From an uncultured Chloroflexales bacterium (GTDB taxonomy: Bacteria; Chloroflexota; Chloroflexia; Chloroflexales; Chloroflexaceae): 47,094 nucleotides of DNA. Positions 17,255-30,631 of the stretch are shown in pieces; the first letter of the stretch is position 1; the number at the start of each line of letters is the position of its first letter. A program made the translations under genes and the position numbers. The notes below the pieces were generated by a model. The model saw only the letters and a list, made by a program, of their open reading frames with translations, searched no databases and had not been told where the DNA came from. Where the stretch lies: contig CALANA010000201.1 in assembly GCA_937925925.1 (NCBI GenBank), positions 1-47,094 on the forward strand. The letters run 5' to 3'.

Positions 17255-17560
17255 TCGGTATGGTATACTAATGCCAATGTGCCTTCGACCTTCCGCTTGC
17301 TCATACGACAACGAGACTTCTCCTGGAAAGAGCTGTCGAGGGGGTGGAGGGACGTTGCATGCGTCGCCTCTCCGCCACATTCCCCCTGGCCCCCCTGTGG
17401 GGGTCGGACGTAGCGAAGCTGCGCCCGACCCGAAAAGGCAACATGGGCAGGGATCGCAAGCCCCCACACCCCCGCCGCGACGCGGGCGCGTGGGAGGATG
17501 CATGGCACGAACATGCGGAAGGTTCACGTCGAAACGGTATAATACCTACTAACCATACGC
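17255..17560. mobile_element. Non-coding MITE-like repeat, family B long form
   Basis: The left end (GGTATACTAATGCC..., with CGACCTTCCGCTTGCTC) is imperfectly inverted relative to the right end (GAACATGCGGAAGGTTC..., GGTATAATACC). The inside includes GAGACTTCTCCTGGAAAGAG, a hairpin GGGTCGG...GCGAAGC...CCGACCC (17398-17430) and AACATGGGCAGGG, all shared with 7731-7892 and 26286-26625. It fills most of the 540-bp gap between the beta-helix gene and the first AAA+ gene. Its boundaries are approximate. Confidence 0.5.
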
Positions 17561-26285: not shown

Positions 26286-26625
26286 CTTATACCAATCTGG
26301 TTTCACCCCCGCCCAAACGACGATTCGAATCTGGTCTGATCTGCGCTGGAACCACGAATTCCAATTCGACTTCGCCCTTCCGCATCCGTTGGTTCGTCGT
26401 ACGCTTGCACATACGACCACGAGACTGCCCCTGGAACGAGCTGTCGCGGGGCGGAGGGGCGTTGCATGCAATGCCCCTCCGCCGACATCCTCACATGGGC
26501 GGGGGCCTGCGGCCCCCGTACCCCCACTGGCAAGAACATGCGGAAGGTTCACATCGAAACGGTAGAATACCACGAATACCACGATTTTTTGCGAAATGGA
26601 CATCGGATTGGTATTATGCTGGGAC
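26286..26625. mobile_element. Non-coding MITE-like repeat, family B long form
   Basis: The ends carry inverted ATACCAATC (TTATACCAATCTGG at 26287 against CCGATTGGTATTAT near 26604-26617). The inside matches 17255-17560: CACGAGACTGCCCCTGGAACGAG, a palindrome GGAGGGGCGTTGCATGCAATG continuing CCCCTCC (26451-26480), GGGGGCCTGCGGCCCCC, and GAACATGCGGAAGGTTCAC. With 26626-26917, where I see nothing, it makes up the 650-bp gap before the second AAA+ gene. Confidence 0.5.
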
Positions 26626-28734: not shown

Positions 28735-29193
28735 TTACTTTTCCACTGGATAGCGTGCGCGTTCCCAGGCGATCATGCCCCCACGCATATTGTGGACGCG
28801 CTCATATCCCTGCTGGCGGAGGAAATTGGTAATCTGACCGCTGCGGTTGCCACTGCGACAGTAGACGATAACGGTTTTGTCGGTGGGGATTTCATCTAAT
28901 CGTCGCGGCACCTCATTCATAGGGATGAGCAGCGTGTCGGCGATATGTACGGCGTCATGTTCCCATGGTTCACGCACGTCGAGCAAGATAACATCTTCCT
29001 GATGCTGGATGCTCGCCACCGTTGCGACATCAATCTCACGTGCTAAGTTCAGCAGATCAACGTCGGCGCTGGCAGCCACATCTGCCGCTCCCAGGCTATC
29101 AACGGCAACCGGTGCATCAACGGTCGCCGCATCAGGCGTACACGCTGTTAGCAACAGGAATGATCCGATTATGAGTACCATCAGGTGTTTCAT
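28735..29193 (-). CDS. Rhodanese-domain lipoprotein
   Basis: 152 aa from the ATG at 29193 (AAGGAG seven bases upstream; a TTG lies one codon earlier). The signal peptide ends in the lipobox LTAC, so it is lipid-anchored outside the membrane. The rhodanese domain (residues ~55-150) has 'VILLDVREPWEHDAVHI' and the active-site loop 'VYCRSGNRS' with its catalytic Cys. It transfers sulfane sulfur or acts in thiol chemistry; the partner is unknown. Single gene. Confidence 0.9.
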   Translation of the reverse strand: MKHLMVLIIGSFLLLTACTPDAATVDAPVAVDSLGAADVAASADVDLLNLAREIDVATVASIQHQEDVILLDVREPWEHDAVHIADTLLIPMNEVPRRLDEIPTDKTVIVYCRSGNRSGQITNFLRQQGYERVHNMRGGMIAWERARYPVEK

Positions 29194-29335
29194 CAAAGCT
29201 CCTTTGCTCTGTTTCAGAGCATTTGTCCAGAAAGGAGGTATCGCTCACTGGTCGATGCGCCAGAGTTCCCCTCGTCCCCACACATACTACCTGTATTCTA
29301 CCGCATGCACCGGGAAAGTCCAGCTATAATGACGC

Positions 29336-29486
29336 AACCGACGGGAGTCCCAGCTTGAGCCGGGCCGGTGGTGCGTGGCGCTCGTCGCCCCTGACGCAAC
29401 CGACGGGAGTCCCGGCTCAAGCCGGGCCGGTGGCACCCGGCACCGGCACTCCGACCGGAGTCCCGGCTTAAGCCGGGCTGGTGTTG
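29336..29486. repeat. REP-like cluster, family C (GAGTCCCGGCTNAAGCCGGG)
   Basis: Three copies of the hairpin (C)CCCGGCTNAAGCCGGG joined to ACCGACGGGAGTCC stand in tandem. The same family occurs at 33525-33545, 34516-34539 and 35563-35696. It lies in the 590-bp gap before the PPDK-regulator gene. Confidence 0.7.
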
Positions 29487-29565
29487 CGGCAGCACGTCAA
29501 TAGTGCGTTAATCAGAGCTGCTGTGCAACCCAGGCTTCTTAAACGATGAATCTATTGGATGTCAT

Positions 29566-29681
29566 GTAACCGTTCAGGTGGGGTGGTCAGGAGGGGCGTT
29601 GCCCCTCCTGGAGTCTCTTCGTTTTGCGGGGGCCGCAGGCCCCCGCGCCCCGCCAGCGCACGTACCACCTGAACGGTTACG
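29566..29681. mobile_element. MITE with perfect 16-bp TIRs and 9-bp target-site duplication
   Basis: GTAACCGTTCAGGTGG (29566-29581) and CCACCTGAACGGTTAC (29666-29681) are exact inverted repeats. They are flanked directly by GGATGTCAT at 29557-29565 and 29682-29690, a 9-bp direct duplication. The 116-bp element contains the hairpins CAGGAGGGGC-gtt-GCCCCTCCTG and GCGGGGGCC-gca-GGCCCCCGC and no gene, so a transposase acting in trans must have moved it. Confidence 0.85.
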
Positions 29682-29782
29682 GATGTCATCATAGTTATGG
29701 TAAGATAGATATAGACAGTTGAAAGATCTGCACAAGATGTGCATGCACATTGTATGTGTCCCTGCATTCGGAGATGATTGCA

Positions 29783-30631
29783 ATGAGCGAGTCAGATCAG
29801 CAAAAAGATGGACAGGAAATCCCCCCGATCTATGTCGTGTCCGGTGGCAAAGGATCGATTGCCGAGGAGGTCGTCCGTAGCGCCCTGGCCCAGTTTGAGG
29901 GCATTGAGGTGCCGGTGATTGTCATTCCACGAGTGCGTCACCAGGAGCAGATTGATGAACTGATGCCCCATGTGGTCGCATCACAGGGTACGATTGTGCA
30001 TACAATGATGGACGCACAGATCCGCAAGGCCTTGATCCAGGCTGCAGATGCGCACCAGATCACATCCATCGATCTGGTGGGACACCTGCTGGAACGGCTG
30101 TCGCAGATTCTGGGCCGGCAACCCCTGGGCCGACCAGGATGGTATCACCATCTGCGCGCCTCATATTACGAGCGGATCGAGGCCATCGAGTTTACCGTCG
30201 CTCATGACGATGGGCGTAATCCGCAAGAGTGGCACAAAGCCGAGATTATCCTGACCGGCGTGTCCCGCACGGGCAAAACCCCCTTGAGTATCTATCTCTC
30301 CGTGCAAGGCTGGAAGGTCGCCAATGTTCCGCTCGTGCCGCAAATCCCGCCCCCGCCTGAATTGTTTCAAGTTGACCCACGGCGGGTAATTGGCCTGACG
30401 ATTGACGGCGGGCAACTCGCTGCGCATCGCCAGAAACGTCAGAAACGCCTGGGGATTGCGTTAGGTGCCAACTACACCGACCTGGATGCGGTGTATCAGG
30501 AAGTGACGGCGGTGCGGCGCATTTTTCGCAAGGGCGGGTTTACCGTCGTTGATGTCACTGACAAGCCTATCGAGGAGAGCGCAGACGAAGTGATCAAGAT
30601 TATCACCCGCCAGAACCCCACCCGTCTGTAA
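29783..30631 (+). CDS. Pyruvate, phosphate dikinase / PEP synthase regulatory protein (kinase-pyrophosphorylase)
   Basis: A 282-aa bifunctional regulator of the DUF299/PSRP family, which inactivates PEP synthase or PPDK by ADP-dependent phosphorylation of the catalytic-site Thr and reactivates it by Pi-dependent phosphorolysis. The N-terminus 'IYVVSGGKGSIAEEVVRSALAQF', the P-loop 'LTGVSRTGKTPLSIYLS' and 'GWKVANVPLVPQIPPPPELF' are the family's blocks, and the length is normal. The ATG at 29783 has GGAG ten bases upstream; earlier in-frame ATGs (29750, 29774) are less likely. The target enzyme is not in the window. Confidence 0.93.
   Translation: MSESDQQKDGQEIPPIYVVSGGKGSIAEEVVRSALAQFEGIEVPVIVIPRVRHQEQIDELMPHVVASQGTIVHTMMDAQIRKALIQAADAHQITSIDLVGHLLERLSQILGRQPLGRPGWYHHLRASYYERIEAIEFTVAHDDGRNPQEWHKAEIILTGVSRTGKTPLSIYLSVQGWKVANVPLVPQIPPPPELFQVDPRRVIGLTIDGGQLAAHRQKRQKRLGIALGANYTDLDAVYQEVTAVRRIFRKGGFTVVDVTDKPIEESADEVIKIITRQNPTRL

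Follow-up and report, generated by a model that had tools for sequence, protein, structure and literature searches.

How did a short, geneless stretch of hairpin DNA come to lie between two genes of an uncultured Chloroflexales bacterium, and which transposase put it there? The element is found in the 47,094-nucleotide stretch of DNA analysed here (the window), between a gene for a rhodanese-domain protein and a gene for a kinase/pyrophosphorylase, the latter about 100 bp downstream (Table 1). A first-pass annotation had described it as a MITE with perfect 16-bp inverted ends and a 9-bp target duplication. Both descriptions hold, as the terminal inverted repeats match at 16 of 16 positions and the two copies of the duplication are identical. 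The element measures 115 bp, one less than had been given, and the last base of the right duplication is 29689 and not 29690. Allowing up to three mismatches, the window contains four matches to the 16-mer end (two of them exact), versus 0.44 expected.

Table 1 Features of the element and its surroundings, in window positions.
Feature	Position	Strand	Remarks
Rhodanese-domain gene	28738-29196	-	
Left target site duplication copy, 9 bp, GGATGTCAT	29557-29565	.	Sequence; 8 or 9 bp is the family rule
MITE, subfamily A, 115 bp	29566-29680	.	4 differences from subfamily consensus; 28 subfamily-A copies in the DNA read
Left terminal inverted repeat GTAACCGTTCAGGTGG, 16 bp	29566-29581	+	End common to IS66-family elements elsewhere
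Inner hairpin 1, CAGGAGGGGC-GTT-GCCCCTCCTG	29588-29610	.	Fold
Inner hairpin 2, TGCGGGGGCC-GCA-GGCCCCCGCG	29625-29647	.	Fold
Right terminal inverted repeat	29665-29680	-	Exact reverse complement of GTAACCGTTCAGGTGG
Right target site duplication copy, 9 bp, GGATGTCAT	29681-29689	.	Sequence
Kinase/pyrophosphorylase gene	29783-30628	+	

The element had also been called "all hairpin", which is roughly right: its predicted fold as single-stranded DNA consists of a terminal stem and two inner hairpins (-42.5 kcal/mol; z = -6.9 relative to shuffled sequences). These inner hairpins may aid the folding of the element or may be captured repeats. No transposase gene is present, the two open reading frames that cross the 115 bp being mechanical, and we found no promoter- or terminator-like sites within the element itself. 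When a same-genus genome was compared at this locus, homology was not found beyond the gene there. Directly upstream of the MITE, the window contains three copies of a 42-nt palindromic REP-like repeat, TGACGCAACCGACGGGAGTCCCGGCTCAAGCCGGGCCGGTGG (29330-29484).

The window copy is one of a large family. Throughout the draft assembly (5.23 Mb, 316 contigs, 93% complete), the 16-mer end has 170 exact matches and 265 matches with at most one mismatch, whereas a reversed-pattern control of the same 16-mer had none. Close copies of near full length numbered about 28 in a DNA search of the genome (88-96% identity), which also recovered more distant ones. Complete elements were counted in about 1.7 Mb that we read base by base, roughly one third of the genome. 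This yielded 97 paired elements, which we assigned to subfamilies A (28, including the window copy), B (43) and C (16), with 10 others. Their usual length is 115-121 bp, and longer forms carry an additional hairpin module of about 44 bp. In long copies of 160-162 bp (L001, L044, L200 and others) this extra module, TTTTTCGGCCCGTTGTGGCGGC...GCCGCCACAACGGGCCGAAAAA, is located between the usual two hairpins, which suggests modular gain or loss of hairpins. One subfamily-C copy (L024, about 1300-1480) is apparently split by an element of another kind, whose inverted ends are AGTGTCGGTTTTTT...AAAAAACCGACACT. Many contigs of the assembly end inside MITEs, so these repeats partly explain its fragmentation.

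The copies also speak to the age of the family. Divergence from the subfamily consensus has a median of 5-7% (5.2% in subfamily A), and the window copy differs from its consensus by 3.4%. Hence, despite the perfect ends and duplication of the window copy, the family as a whole does not represent a very recent burst. The recent movement that had been proposed for the element agrees with its intact ends and target duplication, but "recent" is overstated for copies that lie about 5% from their consensus.

We then examined the insertion sites. Exact duplications flank 43 of the 97 paired elements (8 bp in 17 cases and 9 bp in 26), and when one mismatch is allowed, duplications of 8 or 9 bp are found at 64 of the 97. 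In a control that compared left flanks with the right flanks of other elements, over 20 rounds, nothing longer than 4 bp was obtained. The target itself shows a weak, two-fold symmetric pattern around the duplication. To find empty sites, we removed an element together with one copy of its duplication and sought the joined sequence, uninterrupted, elsewhere in the genome. Three such sites were recovered within the same genome. The target of the L078 copy is uninterrupted in C225 (L134), at 96% identity over 180 bp; since both sequences lie at contig starts, this pair may represent a strain variant or a duplication. The L053 and L059 copies are inserted in members of a separate repeat family, other copies of which are uninterrupted (82-83% over 131 bp). 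Taken together, the 170 ends against none in the control, the 97 pairs, the duplications and the empty sites establish a real MITE family of many dispersed copies, in line with the MITE reading of the first-pass annotation.

The repeat that hosts the L053 and L059 insertions is present in 64 or more copies in about 1.7 Mb, and also occurs in the window at 26357-26484 and 17268-17404. Its consensus (ATACCAATTTGACTTCGACCTTCCGCATCC...) contains the hairpins GGCGTTGCATGCAACGCC and GGGGGCC. Another MITE-like element (L059, about 194-318), with ends GTACCTGTTCAC...GTGAACAGGTAC, is nested in the MITE copy of L059, and similar sequences are present in L089 and in L256, in the latter beside an IS66 fragment.

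We obtained candidates for the responsible transposase by searching public genomes for the 17-mer GTAACCGTTCAGGTGGG. Among the matches listed, IS66-family elements with the 16-17 bp end were found in at least four genomes and are complete in two. The 'Tectomicrobia' MAG KatS3mg131 has, among these matches, four complete IS66 copies of 1529-1536 bp with the same ends. Their duplications are TCGCCGCGG, AAAACCCA, ACCTGGGA and GGCATCGGC (8, 8, 9 and 9 bp, respectively), and the only ends in that genome are the eight that belong to these four copies. The gammaproteobacterial MAG KW1-S15_132 has, again among the matches listed, one IS66 element of 1604 bp with the same ends and an intact transposase of 488 amino acids, which scored 316 bits against NF033517 (cut-off 180) and also matched PF03050; no clear target duplication was detected at this copy. 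The autonomous elements (L224, KatS3mg131) encode one IS66 transposase ORF in 1.5-1.6 kb and no tnpA or tnpB. Contig ends of two further MAGs, one from Armatimonadetes and one from Caldilineales (DTUCFX11), place the C-terminus of an IS66 transposase directly next to this 17-mer end.

The window element is thus very probably a non-autonomous MITE of IS66 type, moved in trans by an IS66 (ISBst12-type) transposase that would now be lost from the lineage or missing from the draft assembly. Action in trans is suggested by the identity of the ends and the length of the duplications: GTAACCGTTCAGGTGG starts with GTAA, and duplications of 8 bp and of 9 bp both occur at the KatS3mg131 IS66 copies as well. 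According to this model, an autonomous element would supply the IS66 transposase, the transposase would recognise the 16-bp ends of the MITE, and copies would be inserted at new sites, creating target duplications of 8 or 9 bp. Because no IS66 transposase lies between its ends, we file the element as a MITE with IS66-type ends and not as an IS66 insertion sequence. Except for the ends, its interior has no visible resemblance to the IS66 elements found, and direct descent by internal deletion is at most a candidate route. The lack of an autonomous copy in a 93%-complete assembly counts against the IS66 model.

The first-pass annotation had expected an autonomous parent with the same ends in this genome or in a relative. 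Searches of the whole assembly with the PF03050 profile, which gave one truncated remnant, and with an IS66 transposase protein recovered in all only two degraded IS66 fragments, neither with these ends. Long pairs of ends (0.4-6 kb apart) in 1.67 Mb were, where inspected, MITEs or chance matches. Paired ends are absent from all 81 other genomes of the order, some of which do encode IS66 transposases (29-50% identity). These 81 genomes and 399 sampled genomes of the phylum had only single matches to the end, and the ones inspected were chance-like, for example within coding sequence. Viral contigs had no matches to the ends. The expectation was therefore not borne out in this assembly or in the other genomes of the order that were searched, whereas the matching IS66-family elements of distant bacteria provide the kind of parent that had been envisaged.

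A related question, within the preferred explanation, is whether the organism has an intact parent that the draft lacks, identical IS copies having collapsed during assembly into contigs below the length retained. No contig shorter than 2.5 kb was seen, the many contig ends within MITEs fit such a collapse, and all that is left of the IS66 copies in the Caldilineales MAG is contig-end stubs. Against this, about 30 contig-end stubs with these ends were inspected in our assembly, and all of them run into MITE interiors and none into IS66; the protein search of the whole assembly, as described, gave remnants only. We therefore regard an unassembled parent as possible but somewhat doubtful.

It is improbable that a different DDE family with 8-9 bp duplications (e.g., IS256 or IS4) moved the MITE and that the match to IS66 ends is coincidental. 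The length of the duplication is by itself not specific to IS66, and a PF01609 (DDE_Tnp_1) profile search of the genome did recover two broken transposase copies. These remnants, however, have no such ends nearby, whereas IS66-family elements carrying the 16-17 bp end occur in at least four genomes, of which two have complete copies, and the same mixture of 8 and 9 bp occurs at IS66 elements. Even less credible is a structural or regulatory repeat of the REP/ERIC sort, multiplied by duplication or through a RAYT-type system instead of by DDE transposition: the strong hairpins, short length, many copies and adjoining REP-like repeats agree with it, but transposase-made insertion is marked by exact 8-9 bp duplications, terminal inverted repeats and empty sites, and the duplications and empty sites largely refute it.

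MITEs with the same IS66-type ends were also found in other genomes. Caldilineales DTUCFX11 has one of 187 bp with an 8-bp duplication, and others with exact 8-bp duplications occur in Poribacteria B30T1B8, HGW-Chloroflexi-1, an Anaerolineales MAG and another Chloroflexi MAG. The Poribacteria B30T1B8 genome contains 88 occurrences of a 13-bp form of the end, and the Anaerolineales (SuakinDeep) genome 152. In neither of the two did an IS66 query detect a transposase, an absence that is tentative in draft genomes. As a speculation that we hold with some reserve, IS66-type ends of 13-16 bp may have repeatedly built large MITE families in distant phyla (this genome, Poribacteria B30T1B8 and Anaerolineales SuakinDeep), each with no autonomous IS66 partner detected; visiting IS66 elements would amplify hairpin DNA that they meet locally, and their later loss would leave orphan MITE populations.

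Among known systems, the ends most resemble those of the ISBst12 group of the IS66 family (ISBst12, ISDge4), with the form GTAAC..TCAG; duplications are 8 bp in that group and 8-9 bp here. In ISDge4, an experimentally active member, the end reads GTAACTGCTCAGCA and the repeat is 8 bp long (PMC12898284). The complete elements with the exact window end carry a single IS66 transposase ORF, and it is by this layout that they are ISBst12-like; in contrast to the group, the window element lacks a transposase gene and has an interior made of hairpins. As a short, geneless element with inverted repeat ends, target duplications and up to tens of copies, it resembles MITEPsy1 (100 bp, shown to transpose, 4-bp duplication) and MITEPsy3 (102 bp, 78 copies), whose parents were attributed to IS5-like and IS630 elements (PMC3189936, PMC6053426), but it differs from both in its IS66-type ends and 8-9 bp duplications. 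REP/ERIC-type repeats are likewise palindromic and of high copy number, yet target duplications, which are the rule here, are unexpected there. The open papers that we searched contained MITEs of other IS families and none assigned to IS66, and no match to the end sequence was found in the literature. The family is probably a new one of an already known kind. With more than 100 copies in one genome, its ends and target scars allow the responsible transposase family to be named, and the same ends at high copy in unrelated phyla make IS66 mobilisation of hairpin DNA across species testable.
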